Positions 19 to 39,512 of a DNA stretch of 39,512 nucleotides are shown here, piece after piece (the stretch's first letter is position 1; each line of letters opens with the position of its first letter). This DNA is from a virus. Where the stretch lies: positions 1-39,512 of IMG/VR virus record IMGVR_UViG_3300037502_002631. The stretch is one strand, 5' to 3'. The notes beneath the pieces are model-generated. The model was not told the origin of the DNA. It saw only the letters and a list, made by a program, of their open reading frames with translations, and did no database searches. Both the position numbers and the translations under genes were made by a program.

Positions 19-396
19 AGCAGCGCGCTGCTTGCGATCCTCGCGCTGCTGCACGGCCACGAACGAGTCGATCATTGCGCGGGTCTGCGAGCGCGCGGGC
101 TCGACCAGTCGATCCCATTGCGCTGCAACATGAAGGGCGTCCTGCGAGAGCAACGGCCCGTGGTAGTACGCCCGCCCGGACACCGCAACAGGTTCTAGCG
201 GGCCGGTGCCGACCTCGAGCCATTCCAGGTTGCACTGCAACGCCCGAGCCAGATGGTGCAGCTTGGTGCTGGTTAGCTGGCGGCCGTGCTCCAGATCGGA
301 GATTGCGCTGGGCGACAGTCCGCTCAGACGCGATACCTCACTGAGCGTCATTTCTAACGCTTTCCTTCGCTCGGCAATACGGTCGCCCATTGTCAT
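1..396 (-). CDS. CI-like XRE repressor, 5' part (gene split by contig ends)
   Basis: Reads leftward and leaves the window without a stop. Residues about 4-60 form an HTH_3/XRE domain: GDRIAERRKALEMTLSEVS, then GLSPSAISDLEHGR as the turn and recognition helix. The rest is a short C-terminal region with no visible LexA-type Ser/Lys protease motif. In-frame ATGs lie at 405, 396 and 390. ATG 396 is preferred because a -10-like TAACCT (plus 406-411) just upstream would give a nearly leaderless mRNA, as for lambda cI. Through the terminal repeat the gene continues at 39512-39351, for about 137 residues in all. It sits between two divergent promoters and most likely represses both. Position and fold support this; DNA binding is inferred. 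Confidence 0.75.
   Translation of the reverse strand, partial: MTMGDRIAERRKALEMTLSEVSRLSGLSPSAISDLEHGRQLTSTKLHHLARALQCNLEWLEVGTGPLEPVAVSGRAYYHGPLLSQDALHVAAQWDRLVEPARSQTRAMIDSFVAVQQREDRKQRAAGGGGPP
19..144. repeat. Terminal direct repeat, left copy (contig overlap)
   Basis: These 126 bases are identical to 39387-39512. A single exact copy at each end is what an assembler leaves when it closes a circular or terminally redundant molecule. Joining the copies gives a circle of about 39,368 bp and restores an open repressor reading frame across the junction. A true packaged terminal repeat is an alternative that cannot be excluded from sequence alone. Confidence 0.9.
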
Positions 397-12002: not shown

Positions 12003-12493
12003 CCGCCACCGTTGAAGTCTCCGCCCAGTTCACGCGCCCGGCCGACACCACGCAGTACGCGGTCGGCGACCTCGTGGCCAACAGCGCCACCGCGGGCAGC
12101 GTCGTCGCGCTGAAGTTCAACCCGGTCGTCAACTTCGCCGGGCAGGCCGTCCGCGTCGAGGCGGCGCGCATCTTCAAGAGCGGCACGGGCGTCACGTCGT
12201 CGTCGTTCCGCCTGCACCTGTTTGAGATCTCGCCTGGTACGCCCGCGAACGGCGACAACGGCGCCTTCAGCTGCGCCGGCAAGGATTACGCCGGGGCTAT
12301 CGACATCACCGTGGACCGGGCGTTCACCGACGGCGCGTTCGGGCGCGGTCTGCCGCTGACCAACACGCCGATGACGTTCCTGCCGGGCGCAGGCGAGAAG
12401 GCCGTGTACGGGCTCCTCGAGGCCCGTGGCACCTACACGCCCGGCAACGCCGAGGTGTTCACCGTCACGCTGGAAGGCTACGCCGTCGAATGA
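11999..12493 (+). CDS. Virion protein after portal (putative decoration protein)
   Basis: A 164-residue beta-rich protein (VEVSAQFTRPADTTQYAVGD, VRVEAARIFKSGTGVTSSSF, FRLHLFEISPG). The start ATG 11999 has GAGG upstream and overlaps the portal stop (ATGA). Similar proteins follow portal genes in other short-tailed phages. The role is probably structural, perhaps capsid decoration. Neither the fold nor the place in the virion can be proved here. Confidence 0.6.
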   Translation: MTATVEVSAQFTRPADTTQYAVGDLVANSATAGSVVALKFNPVVNFAGQAVRVEAARIFKSGTGVTSSSFRLHLFEISPGTPANGDNGAFSCAGKDYAGAIDITVDRAFTDGAFGRGLPLTNTPMTFLPGAGEKAVYGLLEARGTYTPGNAEVFTVTLEGYAVE

Positions 12494-14133
12494 GCGTCGT
12501 TCCCGTCATCCTAAGCGGGCGGCAGGCATTCGATCCGCGCGCGACGCTGTTCGCGCACAACGAACCCGGCGTCTGGTACGACTTCACTGACCTCTCGACG
12601 ATGTTCACCACCTCCGACGGCACCACGCCCGTCACCGCCGTGGAGCAGGCCGTGGGGCTGATCCTTGACAAGAGCAAGGGGTTGGTGCTGGGGCCGGAGT
12701 TGTATACGGGCGGAACCGCGACGGGCGCAGCACAGACTGCAATAACGGGCGGATGGGAAGTTTGGCGCGCTGTCGGAGCAGTCGGTTCAGTTGCGCTTGC
12801 GACGTTGCAAGCCGAAAAAACGTATCGGGTTTCGTTGACGCTTGCGTCACGCGGCTCCGATTTAAGAGCCATTGACATCCGAATCCCGACTGGGACTGGG
12901 CAGCAGGGGTACTTAAGCCTCAGCCCCGCCGCCGGCAGCTATACATTCTTTGTCCGCACCGGAAATGCGGCAAGCGCGCTCAGCTTGACGCAACCAGACG
13001 TAGGTTACGGCGGCCTGTACACCAACATCTCCGTCCGCGAAATCGCCGGCACCCACGCGATCCAGGCGAGCAGCGCGAGCCGGCCGGTGCTGCGGAATCG
13101 GTATAACCAGCTGACGTGGTCGGAAGATTTCAGCAATGCGGCGTGGGTAGTTAGCACCGGCGGCACGGGAGTGACCGCAACAAAGACGCCGAATTTCGGT
13201 ATTGCGCCGGATGGCACGCAGACTGCGTGCCGCGTGCAGTTGGATAAGGGCGCAGGCACGACGGACTCTGATTTCGCCCGCATGTTCCAGTCGACCTCGC
13301 TTTCGTCCGTGCGGCGGCGTGTGTGGATCAAAACGAACGACGCCTCGACGAAAACGTTTCGGCTTGAAGCAACCGGCGCAAATCTCACTGTCACGGGAAC
13401 GTGGACGCAGATTTCCGACGCAGCCTCGGCGTCCTCACTACAGATCCTGCTGCAGGGCACGACATCGAACAGCGCAGATTTTTTGGTCTGGCATCCAGAG
13501 GTTGTCTACTCGCAGGATTTCAACTTCCCCTACCAGCGCATCAACGCCGCCACCGACTACGACAGCGACACGACCAAGTTCCCGCTCTACCTCGCGTTCG
13601 ACGGCTCCGACGACAGCCTGTACACGGCTGCGAACCTCGACCTCTCCGGCACCGACAAGGTGACCGTGTTCGCGGGGGTGACGAAGCTGTCGGATGCGGC
13701 GCGTGGGTCAATTGTCGAGTCAGGTGCAAGCTATGCTGCGGGCGGCACCTTTGGCGTGCTTGCTGCCAATCTGGCTGGCGCGAACTATCAGTTTGGAATG
13801 AGCGGCTCAACAAGCGGCACGGTCGATGAAACCGTTGCCGGGTTTGCTTCGCCCCACAGCGCAGTGCTTACGGTTCAAATGGACATGGCTGGCGCAACTC
13901 GACCAGCCGAGCTTTCGCCGAGAGTCAACGGTGTGGGATCAAGCGGCGCTGCCGGATCCGACTGCGTCGGCAACTTCGGAAACGTTCCGCTTTACATCGG
14001 CCGTCGCAACAACGCGAGCGTGCCCTACAACGGCCGCATCCAGCAACTCATCGTCCGCGGCGCGCAGTCGTCTGCCGCCGAGATCGCCAGCACCGAGCGG
14101 TACGTGGCGGGCAAGCAGGGCAGGGCGCTGTAA
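12490..14133 (+). CDS. Large adhesin-like virion protein with carbohydrate-binding sandwich domains
   Basis: A 547-residue protein. The N-terminus (PGVWYDFTDLSTMFTTSDG, VGLILDKSKGLVLG) is a conserved module of phage head- or tail-attached proteins. The middle holds two segments resembling carbohydrate-binding jelly rolls (YNQLTWSEDFSNAAWVVS, WIKTNDASTKTFRLEATG). The C-terminal part, about 370-545, looks like a LamG/concanavalin lectin fold (YLAFDGSDDSLYTAANLDL, DKVTVFAGVTKL, YIGRRNNASVPYNGRIQQLI). The bases around 12,690-13,000, 13,120-13,500 and 13,700-13,900 are less GC-rich than the flanks, suggesting module exchange. It likely binds cell-surface or environmental glycans. Its GTGA-type coupling shows it belongs to the head operon. 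Confidence 0.65.
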   Translation: MSVVPVILSGRQAFDPRATLFAHNEPGVWYDFTDLSTMFTTSDGTTPVTAVEQAVGLILDKSKGLVLGPELYTGGTATGAAQTAITGGWEVWRAVGAVGSVALATLQAEKTYRVSLTLASRGSDLRAIDIRIPTGTGQQGYLSLSPAAGSYTFFVRTGNAASALSLTQPDVGYGGLYTNISVREIAGTHAIQASSASRPVLRNRYNQLTWSEDFSNAAWVVSTGGTGVTATKTPNFGIAPDGTQTACRVQLDKGAGTTDSDFARMFQSTSLSSVRRRVWIKTNDASTKTFRLEATGANLTVTGTWTQISDAASASSLQILLQGTTSNSADFLVWHPEVVYSQDFNFPYQRINAATDYDSDTTKFPLYLAFDGSDDSLYTAANLDLSGTDKVTVFAGVTKLSDAARGSIVESGASYAAGGTFGVLAANLAGANYQFGMSGSTSGTVDETVAGFASPHSAVLTVQMDMAGATRPAELSPRVNGVGSSGAAGSDCVGNFGNVPLYIGRRNNASVPYNGRIQQLIVRGAQSSAAEIASTERYVAGKQGRAL

Positions 14134-16063: not shown

Positions 16064-17077
16064 ATGGCTATTGTTTCCGGCACCACGTGGACTCGCTCCA
16101 CCGCCAACTCCCTCACCATGGGGAGCAACATCCGCGAGGATCTCTCCGACGTCATCCACGAGCTCGACCCGATGGACACGTGGGCGCTCACGAACCTCGA
16201 GCAGGTTCAGGCGCGCTCGACGTTCCACGAGTGGCTTGCCGACGACCTCGCGGCCGCTGCAGCAAACCTCGTCCGCGAAGGCGACGAGGCCAGCTTCACG
16301 ACCGCCGCTCCGGCGCGTCGCCTCGGCAACTACATGCAGATCAGCACGAAGACCTTCATCGTGTCGGACACCCTCGAGGTGGTCGACAAGGCGGGTCGTC
16401 GGACGGAGACCGGTCGCCTCGGCACCAAGCTCCTGAAGGAGCTCAAGAGGGACATGGAATACGCCCTTGTCCGCAACCAGGCCTCCTCGCTGGGCGCCGA
16501 TGCCACCGCCCGCGCCTCTGCCGGCATGGAGAGCTGGATCGCCGGCCCGACGGCCAACACCGCCGGCACGCTGGCGAACGTGGTCTCGGCCACGACCAAC
16601 GGCGCGTCCCACACGACCCCCGGGTTCTCCGGCGGCCTCGTGGCGTCCCCGACCGACGGCACCACCGGCGCGCTGACCATCGGTCAGCTCAACGCCGCGC
16701 TCGGCGGCGCGTGGGAGGACGGCGGCGATCCGCGGGTGATCCTGGTCGGCGCGAAGCAGAAGGCGGTCATCGACGCCTTCCAGGGCATCGCGACGCGCCA
16801 GATCAACGTGGGCAAGGCCGAGGCCCCGATCATCGGGGCGGCGAACATGTACGTGTCGAGCTACGGCTCGCCGCACATGGTCGTCCTGTCCCGCTACGTG
16901 CGTGACAGCGTGGTCCTCTGCCTCGACCCGGACTACTGGGCGGTGGCCTTCCTGCGCAAGCCGCAGATGAAGGACCTCGCCAAGACGGGCGACGCGACCA
17001 AGAAGCTGATCGTGACGGAGTACGGCCTCGTGTGCCGCAACCCGAACGCGTCGGCGAAAGTTGTGGGCTGTTCGTAA
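16064..17077 (+). CDS. Major capsid protein (SU10 / DUF5309 family)
   Basis: A 337-residue protein with family features: GSNIREDLSDVIHELDPMDT near the N-terminus, EWLADDLAAAAANLVREGDE, YMQISTKTFIVSDTLEVVDK, and RETGRLGTKLLKELKRDME-like helix text, then VILVGAKQKAVIDAFQGI and DYWAVAFLRKPQMKDLAKTG at the C-terminal end. This is the HK97-fold capsid family typed by phage SU10. It would form the icosahedral shell after scaffold-guided assembly. It begins three bases after the scaffold stop. An inverted repeat and an antisense homing endonuclease follow. Confidence 0.9.
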   Translation: MAIVSGTTWTRSTANSLTMGSNIREDLSDVIHELDPMDTWALTNLEQVQARSTFHEWLADDLAAAAANLVREGDEASFTTAAPARRLGNYMQISTKTFIVSDTLEVVDKAGRRTETGRLGTKLLKELKRDMEYALVRNQASSLGADATARASAGMESWIAGPTANTAGTLANVVSATTNGASHTTPGFSGGLVASPTDGTTGALTIGQLNAALGGAWEDGGDPRVILVGAKQKAVIDAFQGIATRQINVGKAEAPIIGAANMYVSSYGSPHMVVLSRYVRDSVVLCLDPDYWAVAFLRKPQMKDLAKTGDATKKLIVTEYGLVCRNPNASAKVVGCS

Positions 17078-17087
17078 GCTGAATAGG

Positions 17088-17121
17088 GGCGTGGACTCAC
17101 AGTTAAACGTGGGTCCACGCC
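17088..17121. terminator. Inverted repeat after capsid gene (possible terminator)
   Basis: Arms GGCGTGGAC (17088-17096) and GTCCACGCC (17113-17121) with a 16-base loop, followed on the plus strand by a T-rich stretch (CTTTCCTTTTC). It also contains the last codons and stop of the antisense HNH gene. It could end the capsid message. The long loop makes this less than certain. Confidence 0.45.
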
Positions 17122-17624
17122 TTTCCTTTTCGGATGTAATAAATGTTTGTCGTGGTGCAACTGAAAACCGGGGCAATGTCTCGGTCAGGAATTCCCACGG
17201 CGATCATCGCCTTGATTTTGATGACGTCGGATTCGGTAAGTTTGGCGTTTGGGTGACGGCTTCCTTTGGAGTACGCGTTCAGCACATGCATCGCGTGCGC
17301 TCGATTAGCCGCGCCGTCGACGTACTCAAGATTCTCAAGACGGTTGTCCTGTTGGTTGCCGTTCTTGTGATTGACCTGCAAATCGGACTTGCCGACAAAA
17401 GCCTCCATTACAAGGCGATGCACAAGAACTCCTTTTTGATTTCCGTTAGTCGATAGCGTGACGAGCAAGTACTTTCCGCCAGACTTTTTCCAGAGCTTTC
17501 GCGGATAGCCTGCTGGCAATCGACTTCCAGTGCCTCGGAGATTAGACGGAGTGCCGCGTCGGACGCGACCAAAATCCGACACCTCGTAATCTGGAAAACT
17601 GGGAATTGGTTTCCATTGCTCCAT
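17103..17624 (-). CDS. NUMOD4 + HNH homing endonuclease, antisense in capsid region
   Basis: A 173-residue protein. NUMOD4 motif WKPIPSFPDYEVSDFGRVRR at the N-terminus; HNH core with VHRLVMEAFVG (about 75-85), LQVNHKNGNQQDNRLENLE (about 89-107) carrying the catalytic His and Asn; C-terminal helix-turn-helix/NUMOD1-type DNA-reading part (KLTESDVIKIKAMIAVGI). Free-standing homing endonucleases of this type cut related phages lacking the gene and so spread themselves. It is the only leftward gene in the late block, and its bases are clearly less GC-rich than the flanks, a sign of recent entry. All key residues are intact, so it is probably active. Confidence 0.88.
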   Translation of the reverse strand: MEQWKPIPSFPDYEVSDFGRVRRGTPSNLRGTGSRLPAGYPRKLWKKSGGKYLLVTLSTNGNQKGVLVHRLVMEAFVGKSDLQVNHKNGNQQDNRLENLEYVDGAANRAHAMHVLNAYSKGSRHPNAKLTESDVIKIKAMIAVGIPDRDIAPVFSCTTTNIYYIRKGKAWTHV

Positions 17625-17653: not shown

Positions 17654-18136
17654 ATGCTAGTAATCGTCGGCCACGGCCCGAGCGTCAATTGTTCGCTCGG
17701 TCACATGATCGACCGGCACGAGGTCGTGCGCCTCAAGCACGGCCTGACCAAGGACATGCCGCGCGAGCACTTCGGCACGCGCACCGACTACATCTGCGGT
17801 CGCAGCGAGACGTTCCGGCCGCAGAAAGGCGGCCCAAAGTTCTGGCGGTTCAAGGACGAAAGCCCCTGGATTGCGTACTACGCGCAGTTCAAGCCGAAGA
17901 TGTGGAAGCCGAGCCACGGGCTCTGCGCCATCTTCTGCGCCATCGACGAGATCAAGCCCAAGGAAATCGGCCTGATCGGCTGCGACCGGATGCTCTACGC
18001 CGAGGACGATCGCAGCAAGAAGTGGAATTCGCCGCCGACCAAGCCCCACCCGTGGCCGCACGACCAGCGCGCCGAGCGGGAGTGCATGGCGTCGCTCGGC
18101 ATCACGATCATCGACTTTGCCAAGGAGCTCGCGTGA
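17654..18136 (+). CDS. GT29-like (sialyltransferase-fold) glycosyltransferase
   Basis: A 160-residue protein. VIVGHGPSVN at the N-terminus matches the nucleotide-sugar motif of family 29 glycosyltransferases (VGNGPS-type), followed by DRHEVVRLKHG, FGTRTDYICGRSE and, near 105-125, EIKPKEIGLIGCDRMLYAED, also in family order. It is shorter than full enzymes, so a minimal catalytic domain. An AAGGA lies close before ATG 17654. It is the first gene of a run of glycan-related genes between capsid and neck genes. Acceptor and sugar cannot be read from sequence; sialic acid transfer should not be assumed. Confidence 0.6.
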   Translation: MLVIVGHGPSVNCSLGHMIDRHEVVRLKHGLTKDMPREHFGTRTDYICGRSETFRPQKGGPKFWRFKDESPWIAYYAQFKPKMWKPSHGLCAIFCAIDEIKPKEIGLIGCDRMLYAEDDRSKKWNSPPTKPHPWPHDQRAERECMASLGITIIDFAKELA

Positions 18137-18465
18137 GCACATTCCTCGACTACGACCCGCTGCGGGGCGTCTCGTCCTACGAAGACACCTACGACGGGAA
18201 GATGCAGTTGCACTACCGGCAGGACGTCGAGCCGGTGCTCGAGCTGGCCAAGACCGAGCGCATCAACGGCCTCGCCGACAAGGCGGGCAAGAAGCAGGAT
18301 TTGTACCTGTATGCCCGCATCCCGCCGGTCGTGATTTTGAAGCTCAAGTACGAGCACGGCGTCGACATCTTCAAGCGCGACCACATGAAGAAGGCGATGC
18401 AGCTCATCAACCAGCACTTTCCGTACCTGAAGTGCACGGACAAGACCCACAACCTCGCGCACTGA
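18133..18465 (+). CDS. Conserved small podophage protein following capsid
   Basis: A 110-residue protein starting at GTG 18133, overlapping the previous stop. YDGKMQLHYRQDVEPVLELA and LYARIPPVVILKLKYEHGVD are the features of a short family commonly found right behind the capsid gene in podophages; its function is unknown. Its normal neighbour would be the capsid gene, so the HNH gene and the GT29-like gene look inserted between them. It reads as an original member of the head cluster. Confidence 0.7.
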   Translation: MSTFLDYDPLRGVSSYEDTYDGKMQLHYRQDVEPVLELAKTERINGLADKAGKKQDLYLYARIPPVVILKLKYEHGVDIFKRDHMKKAMQLINQHFPYLKCTDKTHNLAH

Positions 18466-18468
18466 CGC

Positions 18469-19860
18469 ATGGCCAAGATCATCGAACTGCAGCCGGCGCC
18501 GGATGATGCGTTGCACCGCCGCGCGCGGCAGCTCGTGGAAGCCGGCGAGCTGGACGACGCCTTCGAGCTCGTCCAGAAGATCCTCACCGACGACCCGAAC
18601 GACGCGCACGCGCTCGTCATCTGCGCCGAGGCGCTGAAGAAGGCCAAGAAGCTGCCGCTCGCCTACAGCCTGGCCCAGCGCGCCACGGCGCTCAAGCCCG
18701 AGCGCGCCGAGACCTGGGGCGCCTTCGGCCACGCCGCGCAGCAGCTCTGGCGCCTTGACGAGGCGCTCTCGGCCTACCGCAAGGCCCAGCAGCGCTCGCG
18801 CACGCCCGGCCAGCAGGCGCTGTACGCCAACAACATCGCCTCGGTGCATTTGGACGCCGGGCGCTTCAAGGCCGCCGAGGCGCCGGCCCGCGAGGCCATG
18901 GCGCTCGACCCCGCCGATATGTCGCCGCGCCACAACCTCGGGCTGTCGCTTCTGGCACAGCGCCGCTGGGCCGAGGCGTGGCCGCATTACAGCGCGAGCG
19001 TGGGCAGCCACGTGCGGCTGAACGTCAAGTACCTGAACCCGCCCGAGCCGACGTGGGACGGCACGCCGGGCAAGACCGTCGTGATCTACGGCGAGCAGGG
19101 CCTCGGGGACGAGATCAACGCCGCCTCCATGCTCCCGGACGCCATTCGCGACTGCCGCCGGGTGATCGTCGATTGCGATCCGCGCCTTGCGAACCTGTTC
19201 CGCCGGTCGTTCCCGGCCGCCACGGTCCACGGCACTCGGCAGGCCAAGCAGCTCGCGTGGTCCGAGGCCGACCGGCGCATCGACGCCAGCATCAGCGCGT
19301 TCGAGGTCGGGCGTTTCTACCGCAATGCGGAGGCCGACTTCCCGGGCACCGCGTACCTCACCCCGTGCCCCGAGCGCACCGCCATGTGGAAGGCGCTGTT
19401 CTCGGCCAAGGCCAAGCCCACCATCGGCATCGCGTGGACGGGCGGCACGTTCCAGAACGCCGGCCAGTACCGCTCGATGCCGCTCAAGGACTGGGCGCCG
19501 CTCTTTGGCGCCATCGACGCGCACTGGGTGAGCCTGCAGTACAAGAGCGCAGCCGAGGAGATCCGCGGCACGCCCGTGGTCGAGTACCCCTGGGCGACGC
19601 TCACGAAGGACTACGACGACACGGCGGCGCTGGTGGCGGCCTGCGACCTCGTCATCTGCGTGCAGACCTCGGTCGGCCACCTCGCGGGCGCGCTCGGCGT
19701 GCCGGCGTGGGTGATGGTCCCGAAGCAGACCCAGTGGCGGTACGGCGAGGAGTGGACCGACACCCCGTGGTATCGCTCCGTGAAGCTTTACCGCGCTCAC
19801 ACCGGCTGGCCCATCAACACCCTGGTATCCGACCTGCGGAGGCACTTTGCTGATCACTGA
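18469..19860 (+). CDS. TPR-repeat glycosyltransferase (GT9/OGT-like fold)
   Basis: A 463-residue protein with two parts. Residues about 8-180 are TPR repeats (LVEAGELDDAFELVQKIL, WRLDEALSAYRKAQQ, AGRFKAAEAPAREAMAL). About 195-460 is a GT-B-type catalytic region: VVIYGEQGLGDEINAASML (donor-side loop), PTIGIAWTGGTFQNAG, and TAALVAACDLVICVQTSVGH followed by LAGALGVPAWVM, typical of heptosyltransferase-like and TPR-linked enzymes. TPR-glycosyltransferases often modify proteins, the TPR part selecting the acceptor, so a virion protein is a candidate. LPS or glycan-precursor modification is the alternative. It overlaps the methyltransferase gene by 14 bases. Confidence 0.8.
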   Translation: MAKIIELQPAPDDALHRRARQLVEAGELDDAFELVQKILTDDPNDAHALVICAEALKKAKKLPLAYSLAQRATALKPERAETWGAFGHAAQQLWRLDEALSAYRKAQQRSRTPGQQALYANNIASVHLDAGRFKAAEAPAREAMALDPADMSPRHNLGLSLLAQRRWAEAWPHYSASVGSHVRLNVKYLNPPEPTWDGTPGKTVVIYGEQGLGDEINAASMLPDAIRDCRRVIVDCDPRLANLFRRSFPAATVHGTRQAKQLAWSEADRRIDASISAFEVGRFYRNAEADFPGTAYLTPCPERTAMWKALFSAKAKPTIGIAWTGGTFQNAGQYRSMPLKDWAPLFGAIDAHWVSLQYKSAAEEIRGTPVVEYPWATLTKDYDDTAALVAACDLVICVQTSVGHLAGALGVPAWVMVPKQTQWRYGEEWTDTPWYRSVKLYRAHTGWPINTLVSDLRRHFADH

Positions 19861-20407
19861 CGAGTACCGCGCCGCGCAAACGGCGATGCACGAGAAGTAC
19901 CACTACGGCACCGCGAGCATTAAGCGGGCGCCGCTGGTGACCGAGATCGTCAACCGGCTCGAGATTACGCACCTGCTGGACTACGGCTGCGGCAAATCGA
20001 CGAACCTGATCAAGCACATCAAGCCGCGCCACAAGCTCACGTACCAGGCCTACGACCCGGCGGTGCCGGAGTTTGCCGGCGCGCCCATCCCGGCGCAGCT
20101 CGTGTGCTGCATCGACGTGCTGGAGCACATCGAACCGGAGCTCCTCGACAACGTGCTCGACGACCTGCAGCGCTGCACCGAGCTCGTGCTGCTCGCCACC
20201 GTCCACACCGGGGCTGCGGGCAAGAAGCTGCCCGACGGGCGCAACGCGCACCTGATCCAGCAGCCGATGGAGTGGTGGCTGCCGAAGTTTCTCGCGCGCT
20301 TTGAAGTGCAGACGATCCAGCGGCTGAACGACCTGTCGTTTTACGTCATCGCCTACGCCAAGCCGCGCGCGATCGAGGGCGTCGACGGGGAGAAGCTGGC
20401 GTCGTGA
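19847..20407 (+). CDS. Class I SAM-dependent methyltransferase
   Basis: A 186-residue protein. HLLDYGCGKSTNLIKHI is the SAM-binding motif I (GxGxS type), YQAYDPAVPEFA gives the acidic loop, and CCIDVLEHIEPELLDNVLDD is motif post-II of the Methyltransf_11/23 class. The start is a TTG at 19847 with a strong GGAGG 6-7 bases upstream. There is no DNA-methylase NPPY or PC motif, so small-molecule, glycan or protein methylation is more likely. It sits between two glycosyltransferase genes and is coupled to both by overlaps, which suggests methylation of the same glycan. Confidence 0.8.
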   Translation: MLITDEYRAAQTAMHEKYHYGTASIKRAPLVTEIVNRLEITHLLDYGCGKSTNLIKHIKPRHKLTYQAYDPAVPEFAGAPIPAQLVCCIDVLEHIEPELLDNVLDDLQRCTELVLLATVHTGAAGKKLPDGRNAHLIQQPMEWWLPKFLARFEVQTIQRLNDLSFYVIAYAKPRAIEGVDGEKLAS

Positions 20408-21123
20408 TCCCGCTGTTCGTCGGCTACGACCCGCGCGAGGCCGCGGCATACCACGTGTTCTGCCAGAGCGTGCTGGAGCGCGCCTCGGTGCCGGTGCAGT
20501 TCATCCCGCTGCACAAGCCGATGCTGGCAGGGTTCGACGGCCAGCGCGACGGGTCGAACGCGTTCATCTTCTCCCGCTTCCTCGTGCCCGAGCTGATGAA
20601 CTTCGAGAACCGCTGGGCGATGTTCGCCGACGGCGACATGGTCATGCTGGACGACATCGCCAAGCTCTGGGCGCAGCGCGAATGCACGAAGGCGCTGATG
20701 GTCGTGCCGCATCAGTACCAGACCAAGCACCCCCGCAAGTACATCGGCAGCCCGCTGGAGTCGATCAACGTCGACTACCCGAGGAAGAACCAGTCGTCCG
20801 TGATGCTCTGGAACTGCGGGCACTACGCCAACCGCATCCTGACGCGCACGTTCATCGACGAGGCGGGCGGGGCGTTTCTGCATCGGTTCCAGTGGCTGCG
20901 GGACGACCAGATCGGGCGCCTGGGCGACGAGTGGAACCGCCTCGTCGGCGAGCAGGACATCGACGGCGCGAAGCTGCTGCACTACACACTCGGCATCCCC
21001 GGGTTCTGGCACTACGCCGAATGCGACGGGGCGGATGCGTGGCACGGGGCGCTGATCCGGGCGCTGCGGGTCGAGGGGCAGACCCCGGTCGACATGGTCG
21101 ACGACGCCTCGAAGAGGAGCTGA
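20404..21123 (+). CDS. GT8-like (GT-A fold) glycosyltransferase
   Basis: A 239-residue protein with a GTG start overlapping the methyltransferase stop. IPLFVGYDPREAAAYHVFCQ begins a GT-A fold; SRFLVPELMNFENRWAMFAD then DGDMVMLDDIAKLW gives the DxD metal site (about residues 77-79); LLHYTLGIPGFWHYAECD near the C-terminus carries the late His-type motif of family 8. Such enzymes add hexoses from UDP-sugars. Last gene of the glycan run; the neck adaptor gene follows after one base. Either the virion or the host surface glycan could be the target. Confidence 0.75.
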   Translation: MIPLFVGYDPREAAAYHVFCQSVLERASVPVQFIPLHKPMLAGFDGQRDGSNAFIFSRFLVPELMNFENRWAMFADGDMVMLDDIAKLWAQRECTKALMVVPHQYQTKHPRKYIGSPLESINVDYPRKNQSSVMLWNCGHYANRILTRTFIDEAGGAFLHRFQWLRDDQIGRLGDEWNRLVGEQDIDGAKLLHYTLGIPGFWHYAECDGADAWHGALIRALRVEGQTPVDMVDDASKRS

Positions 21124-21124
21124 C

Positions 21125-21742
21125 ATGGCCGTCATCACAAACTACGAGACGCTGCTCACCGCGGTCGCCGACTACGTCGCGCGCGATGATCTGACGGGGT
21201 TCGCCCCCAACTTCGTGCAGAACTGGGAAGAGCGCTTCTACCGCGACCCGCAGAACTGGGGCGACTGGATGGAGGCGACCACCACGTTCTCGGCCAGCAC
21301 GGCCGCAGTGCCAGCGGACTTTCTCGGCATCAAGTACGCGACGATCCAGGGCGACGTGTCGAGCTCGCCCCTGCAGCGGGTCTCGCTCGCCGTGTTGCTG
21401 GGCCAGTGGCCGCGGGGCATCTCGGGCAAGCCCCGCATGATCGCCAAGCAGGGCAGCAGTTTCGTGTTCGGTCCTGAGCCGGATAGCAGCTACACGATCA
21501 CGCTGCAGTACTACGCGAAGCCGACATTGCTTCGCAGCGACGCCGACGGCGCCAACTGGCTCACCACGCACGCGCCCGACCTGTGCCTGTACGGGGCGCT
21601 GCTCGAGGCCGAGCCGTTCCTAAAGAACGATGGCCGCATCGCGGTCTGGCGCGACTTCTACACCGATGCGCTCGCGGCGTACCGCGACCAGCAGCGCGAC
21701 GAGGAGTTCATGGGCAGCCCGATGGTCGCGGTGCTGGCGTGA
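21125..21742 (+). CDS. Head-tail adaptor protein
   Basis: A 205-residue protein: NYETLLTAVADYVARDDLTG, PNFVQNWEERFYRDPQNW, SSFVFGPEPDSSYTITLQYY, then DLCLYGALLEAEPFLKNDGR and WRDFYTDALAAYRDQQRDEE. This is the pattern of the podophage adaptor (SU10/T7 gp11-like) that forms a ring below the portal. GAGGAG precedes ATG 21125. It overlaps the nozzle gene by GTGA, the usual adaptor-nozzle order. Confidence 0.8.
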   Translation: MAVITNYETLLTAVADYVARDDLTGFAPNFVQNWEERFYRDPQNWGDWMEATTTFSASTAAVPADFLGIKYATIQGDVSSSPLQRVSLAVLLGQWPRGISGKPRMIAKQGSSFVFGPEPDSSYTITLQYYAKPTLLRSDADGANWLTTHAPDLCLYGALLEAEPFLKNDGRIAVWRDFYTDALAAYRDQQRDEEFMGSPMVAVLA

Positions 21743-39350: not shown

Positions 39351-39512
39351 TTACGCGGACGGAACTTTTGTGCGGGGGGGGGGGGTAGCAGCGCGCTGCT
39401 TGCGATCCTCGCGCTGCTGCACGGCCACGAACGAGTCGATCATTGCGCGGGTCTGCGAGCGCGCGGGCTCGACCAGTCGATCCCATTGCGCTGCAACATG
39501 AAGGGCGTCCTG
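39351..39512 (-). CDS. CI-like repressor, 3' part (continues from 1-396)
   Basis: The final 53 residues of the repressor, in frame with the copy at the other end of the window. The stop TAA is at 39351-39353. Before it the frame passes through the C-run (minus strand) coding T-P-P-P-R-T-K. The length of this run decides the frame; with 12 bases the joined gene is 137 residues. Confidence 0.65.
   Translation of the reverse strand, partial: QDALHVAAQWDRLVEPARSQTRAMIDSFVAVQQREDRKQRAATPPPRTKVPSA
39387..39512. repeat. Terminal direct repeat, right copy
   Basis: Identical to 19-144 over 126 bases. Marks closure of the circular map inside the repressor gene. Confidence 0.9.

Follow-up and report, generated by a model that had tools for sequence, protein, structure and literature searches.

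FlmG of Caulobacter crescentus is a 596-aa cytosolic flagellin O-glycosyltransferase that combines tetratricopeptide repeats (TPRs) with a GT-B domain, the TPR domain being the flagellin-binding part (PMC7591256). Glycosylation of virions by phages is also already known: it is described in mycobacteriophages, and in Che8 and its relatives (Freeman et al. 2023, as cited in PMC11256854) phage-encoded glycosyltransferases (GTs) act with the capsid protein as acceptor. In the related mycobacteriophage Maravista, genes for GTs are found close to the 3' end of the genome, away from the capsid gene. Here we describe a cassette of enzyme genes at positions 17654-21123 of a 39,512-nt viral DNA (IMG/VR record IMGVR_UViG_3300037502_002631; the whole stretch is called the window), lying between the genes for the major capsid protein (MCP) and the head-tail adaptor. 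By description it resembles the Che8 systems in its phage-encoded GTs, and it differs from Maravista in gene location and host. From sequence comparison, the cassette looks like a bacterial cytosolic protein O-glycosylation operon that was captured and became fixed in a LUZ24-like phage lineage. Glycosylation of the virion is our best reading of its function, with a probability of roughly 0.6.

Enzyme families of the cassette

An earlier reading of this DNA from its letters alone (the sequence-only reading) had placed four enzyme genes between capsid and adaptor; gene positions and family assignments bear this out, and add a fifth gene, p110, that it had overlooked. All lie on the plus strand: a minimal GT29-like (sialyltransferase-fold) glycosyltransferase of 160 aa (17654..18136); p110, a LUZ24-family conserved small protein with a GTG start (18133..18465); a 463-aa TPR plus GT9-like GT-B glycosyltransferase of the FlmG class (TPR-GT9, 18469..19860); a class I S-adenosylmethionine (SAM)-dependent methyltransferase (MT) with a TTG start (19847..20407; Methyltransf_23, E = 5.2e-5; phrog_24759, 7e-19); and a GT8-like GT-A glycosyltransferase with a GTG start (20404..21123). 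From the GT29-like gene through the adaptor, the junctions are overlaps of 4, 14 and 4 bp and gaps of 3 and 1 bp. Single-protein Pfam scores were firm for the TPRs (TPR_12, 1.5e-9), the MCP and the adaptor, and weak for the three GTs (GT29, E = 0.078; Glyco_transf_9, 0.0094; GT8, PF01501, 0.0064). Homologues were gathered from IMG/VR and aligned. The five open reading frames (ORFs), p110 included, keep their order across at least 10 distinct contigs, and their dN/dS values of about 0.11-0.41 (0.16-0.41 for the four enzymes) indicate purifying selection. Conservation and dN/dS rule out chance ORFs, and the catalytic motifs are intact.

PF00777 was the only family matched by the GT29-like homologues (6/13, best E = 2.9e-5). 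The window protein itself falls under the Pfam gathering score (12.8 bits; cut-off 23), and is therefore called GT29-like on the strength of fold and motifs. When its AlphaFold2 model (pLDDT 91) was compared with the PDB by Foldseek, the first 29 matches were all sialyltransferases (probability up to 1.00, best E = 2.9e-4), with bacterial GT42 CstII ranking below them; the predicted structure thus confirms a GT29 fold. PDB sequence-profile searches with the GT29 and GT9 domains returned nothing useful. Conserved motifs comprise an L-like VIVGHGPSV, an S-like KPSxGLxAxxxA...IGLIGxD and a VS-like HDxRAE, within which GxG(PS) and PSxGL recur; G6, G8, H136 and E141 (a glycine-rich donor motif and HxxxxE) are invariant in 13/13 sequences. 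The phage enzyme is like the GT29 sialyltransferases ST6GalNAc2, ST3Gal1 and ST8SiaIII in fold and in L-, S- and VS-like motifs, and differs from them in being soluble, only 160 aa long and about 15% identical.

In the TPR-GT9 protein, Pfam matches cover residues 13-177 (TPRs) and 385-412 (GT9), that is, an N-terminal TPR part and a C-terminal GT-B part. The MT class I motifs LDYGCGK and DVLEH are invariant or nearly so. The single-protein Pfam score of the GT8-like enzyme is under the cut-off; its profile matches the solved GT8 structures WbbM (6u4b, 3e-5) and GlyE (5gvv, 0.0099), and D76 and D78 (DxD) and the metal-type H193 are invariant in 31 sequences. The enzyme calls of the sequence-only reading, for which it had proposed fold searches, were upheld: GT29 by the sialyltransferase matches, GT8 by the WbbM and GlyE profile matches, and TPR-GT9 by homology to likely FlmG orthologues (see below).

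We also considered p110 as a further cassette enzyme. All 36 of its 36 homologues, those of cassette-less phages included, match phrog_3982, and the phiM5 homologue, gp15, is annotated 'conserved in LUZ24-like phages'; a fold search of p110 against the PDB gave no match. Belonging to the same family as the neck gene of cassette-less relatives, p110 is, by gene comparison, a core head-neck gene and not a cassette enzyme.

Bacterial relatives adjoin pilin and flagellin genes

GTDB species genomes were scanned with the GT domain of TPR-GT9, giving 74 loci, mostly from Betaproteobacteria (loci are cited by L number). A type IV pilin gene, counted by sequence motif with two checked by Pfam, was present in 34/74 of these non-independent loci, against about 0.3 expected from 34 Pfam Pilin genes in ~86 Mb (20 of the genomes) scaled to the 0.78 Mb of loci. 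A PilB/T-type ATPase motif was found in 15/74, and flagellin genes in six further loci. Homologues of the phage GT8 (~37-46% identical) occur in 26/74 and of the MT in 17/74, and the exact TPRGT9-MT-GT8 order is seen in L134, L147, L166 and L175. Examples of pilin-adjoining operons, among L132-L205, are L135:8623-9039, L166 and L175. The phage cassette shares enzyme families, and often gene order, with such pilA-side operons (L166, L175; Methylococcus L132, L135); unlike it, they often carry arrays of several TPR-GT9 paralogues, and no GT29 homologue was found in the bacterial TPR-GT9 loci. Judged from this neighbourhood, the bacterial TPR-GT9/MT/GT8 operons by pilin genes are candidates for an undescribed cytosolic pathway that glycosylates pilin. 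Pseudomonas aeruginosa TfpO and TfpW are alike in adjoining pilin genes and modifying pilin, but are a different, membrane-bound enzyme type.

In Caulobacteraceae, TPR-GT matches were found in 37/40 genomes. These proteins have 605-642 aa, and flagellin genes adjoin them in 7/8 loci when 10-16 kb windows are considered (none within 1.5-kb flanks). The full-length phage TPR-GT9 profile matches them with E = 1e-58 to 1e-79. Size, domains and genomic place agree with FlmG, of which these Caulobacteraceae proteins are therefore likely orthologues. The phage enzyme resembles FlmG in its order of TPR then GT-B, in full-length homology to the flagellin-linked Caulobacteraceae proteins, in being soluble and in lying near a gene for a self-assembling subunit, here the MCP gene 1.4 kb upstream. 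It differs in its length (463 aa versus about 605-642 aa), in clustering with pilin-associated enzymes and in the accompanying MT, GT8 and GT29; most bacterial relatives, at about 550-650 aa, are also longer. In the TPR-GT9 tree, the phage lineage and GenBank phage ctDrO704 form one clade (support 99) nested in the pilin-associated group, with pilin-associated Methylococcus enzymes as nearest bacterial sisters (support 88). Because the bacterial relatives adjoin pilin or flagellin genes, we take the cassette to derive from a protein-glycosylation operon and not from a lipopolysaccharide (LPS) pathway. The preference of the sequence-only reading for a protein target over LPS gains strong support from these neighbourhoods.

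Distribution in phages

Relatives with MCPs between 98 and ~46% identical share the order MCP-(GT29)-p110-TPRGT9-MT-GT8-adaptor. TPR-GT9 is kept in every sampled member of one LUZ24-like environmental (soil/water) phage clade, mostly with MT and often with GT8, and the capsid and neck genes of ctDrO704 flank TPR-GT9, MT and GT8, likewise in this order. Cassette-less relatives (L053, L062, ctjtQ328 and others) have the empty order MCP-p110-adaptor. Since p110, a single family, persists without the cassette, the empty order is the ancestral one, and the stretch from p110 to adaptor is a slot that takes up cargo. In a tree of MCPs built with the loop columns left out, cassette presence required one change, the 49 cassette-bearing rows lying on one side, which rules out a recent insertion unique to this phage. 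The sequence-only reading, which called the cassette inserted and proposed comparison with relatives lacking it, was therefore right in the evolutionary sense, as the empty slot shows, and wrong if a peculiarity of this phage was meant: the module is old and fixed in the lineage.

Other cargo of the slot includes an extra GT9 (L023), methyltransferases (L040, L056) and an unrelated Anp1/GT2-like transferase (ctyzp037, ctvy9321). Roseobacter phage CRP-9 has the MT between coat protein and adaptor, directly after the coat gene.

Proposed function and acceptor

From the observed families, motifs, synteny, selection and pilin-operon ancestry we infer the following activities, donors, acceptor and order of steps. 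As phage particles are assembled, the TPR domain of TPR-GT9 would bind a structural subunit present in abundance, and the GT-B domain would attach the initial sugar to Ser/Thr. The glycan would be lengthened by the GT8 enzyme, the MT would methylate a sugar, and the GT29 enzyme may cap the glycan with a CMP-activated sialic-acid-like sugar (Kdo or a nonulosonate).

A virion protein of the phage itself is a plausible acceptor, given gene position and lineage-wide retention. The bacterial enzyme class adjoins a filament subunit gene, and the subunit encoded alongside it in the phage is the capsid protein; the MCP is for this reason probably the likeliest acceptor, perhaps via a Thr-rich loop. 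This loop (residues ~158-204), which we take from general knowledge of the HK97 fold to lie between the spine helix region and the A-domain, has 10 Thr in 47 aa in the window MCP. Across phages it holds on average 9.7 Thr (24%) with the cassette and 5.1 (15%) without, Thr elsewhere being equal. We did not accept this Thr excess as a statistical demonstration of the acceptor: the Mann-Whitney p of 2e-10 is computed over sequences, but the tree holds one independent change. A fuller history is possible, though we lean somewhat against its holding in every part: lytic podoviruses once captured an undescribed cytosolic TPR-GT9/MT/GT8 pilin operon, shortened its TPR part, retargeted it to the Thr-rich capsid loop and added a sialyltransferase-fold enzyme, yielding a methylated, acid-capped capsid glycan.

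Several observations weigh against virion glycosylation. The Thr-loop correlation, noticed post hoc, goes back to one change in the tree (1 independent pair), and ctDrO704, whose MCP is unrelated and has no Thr loop, carries the cassette of three enzymes; the loop is accordingly a lead only. A terminator-like hairpin stands between the MCP gene and the enzyme genes (see below). Marine relatives have MT after TPR-GT9 and a GT8 homologue several kb upstream of the scaffold gene, so strict adjacency is unnecessary. A donor-sugar synthesis gene was not recognised among the window genes, not all of which are annotated. Finally, the nearest bacterial relatives are pilin-associated, which favours an alternative in which host type IV pilin or flagellin is glycosylated during infection, altering a phage receptor so that competitors are excluded or progeny do not bind debris. 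In keeping with this alternative, pilus-specific phages are known to be blocked when TfpO or TfpW glycosylates the pilin (PMC11841053). However, the genes sit in the head module and not in an early region, a lytic phage would presumably reach assembled pili too late, and the shorter phage TPR part suggests a changed acceptor. In addition, TPR-GT homologues immediately follow tail-fibre genes in cyanophages BUCT-ZZ01 (L208:5749-7464) and S-SRM01 (L209:5467-6816). We therefore regard a host pilin or flagellin target as unlikely, while ranking it first among the alternatives to a virion target.

Somewhat less likely again is that the enzymes work from the cytosol on the host's LPS core or a different surface glycan. 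LPS-core enzyme families include GT9, GT8 and the CMP-sugar transferases, the GT29 enzyme could use CMP-Kdo, and a weak NCBIfam match to heptosyltransferase I was obtained (E = 0.0027). An LPS-core role read from the GT9 and GT8 names alone was nevertheless dropped in view of the bacterial neighbourhoods, in which this TPR-GT9 subfamily, homologous to likely orthologues of the protein O-glycosyltransferase FlmG, adjoins pilin and flagellin genes. Furthermore, Pfam and PHROG searches found no flippase or membrane-anchored transferase family, the hallmark of gtr-type seroconversion, among the cassette genes.

It is improbable that p110, or a tail or fibre protein, is the acceptor instead of the MCP. 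The p110 gene adjoins TPR-GT9 in nearly all members, but is equally present without the cassette, its product is not Thr/Ser-rich, and the phiM5 proteins marked as found in particles do not include the p110 homologue. That the enzymes hypermodify phage DNA, adding sugar and methyl groups to its bases, is very improbable: glycosylation of phage DNA is known and a radical SAM/SPASM enzyme lies between MT and GT8 in L099 (7612-8553), but the window genes searched yielded no recognisable base hydroxymethylase or similar enzyme, the homologues are tied to protein glycosylation and the genes lie in the head module.

The literature searched, non-exhaustively, appears to contain no description of this set of enzymes, of its origin in a pilin operon, of the member with a sialyltransferase fold or of the location in a podovirus head cluster, and none was found of the cytosolic pilin/flagellin glycosylation route that TPR-GT9 operons would represent across Betaproteobacteria and beyond. 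With the cassette as a marker, environmental phages that may have glycoprotein capsids can be picked out from sequence. Should the capsid be the substrate of the phage enzymes, one reader-plus-writer module would have moved among flagellin, pilin and capsid, making TPR-coded acceptor choice directly testable.

Flanking features

The MCP gene (16064..17077, plus strand), of the SU10/LUZ24-like HK97 fold family, matches PF17236 (SU10_MCP, E = 2.6e-78) and PDB 9ny2 (E = 1.4e-30); the adaptor gene (21125..21742, plus strand; PF24175, SU10_adaptor, 2.8e-30) forms the downstream border of the slot. Directly 3' of the MCP gene, a terminator-like hairpin (17088..17125, plus strand; folded at -28.4 kcal/mol) is followed by a T-rich tract. 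It was unscored by a simple terminator scanner; different but equivalent hairpins follow the MCP gene in L122, L008 and L010, and phage tf has an annotated terminator at the equivalent place. This strong hairpin and T-tract suggest that the enzymes are transcribed by read-through, at a lower level than the capsid. No promoter was found, and the operon would be expressed late.

A minus-strand HNH/NUMOD4 homing-type endonuclease gene (17103..17624; PF13392, 5.5e-11; PF07463, 1.3e-8) separates MCP from cassette. It is absent from the 98%-identical relative L122, where the interval is ~70 bp, and by this comparison it is a recent insertion outside the cassette proper. In ctDrO704 a different HNH endonuclease (L002:8516-8992) lies between TPR-GT9 and MT, so the cassette itself is targeted by homing endonucleases.

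Between the portal and scaffold genes, window positions 12490-14133 encode a 547-aa protein that has no PHROG match and a 43%-identical homologue in L088. A 125-bp direct repeat occupies both ends of the window (20-144 and 39388-39512), each copy beside C- or G-runs, which suggests a complete or circularly assembled genome.

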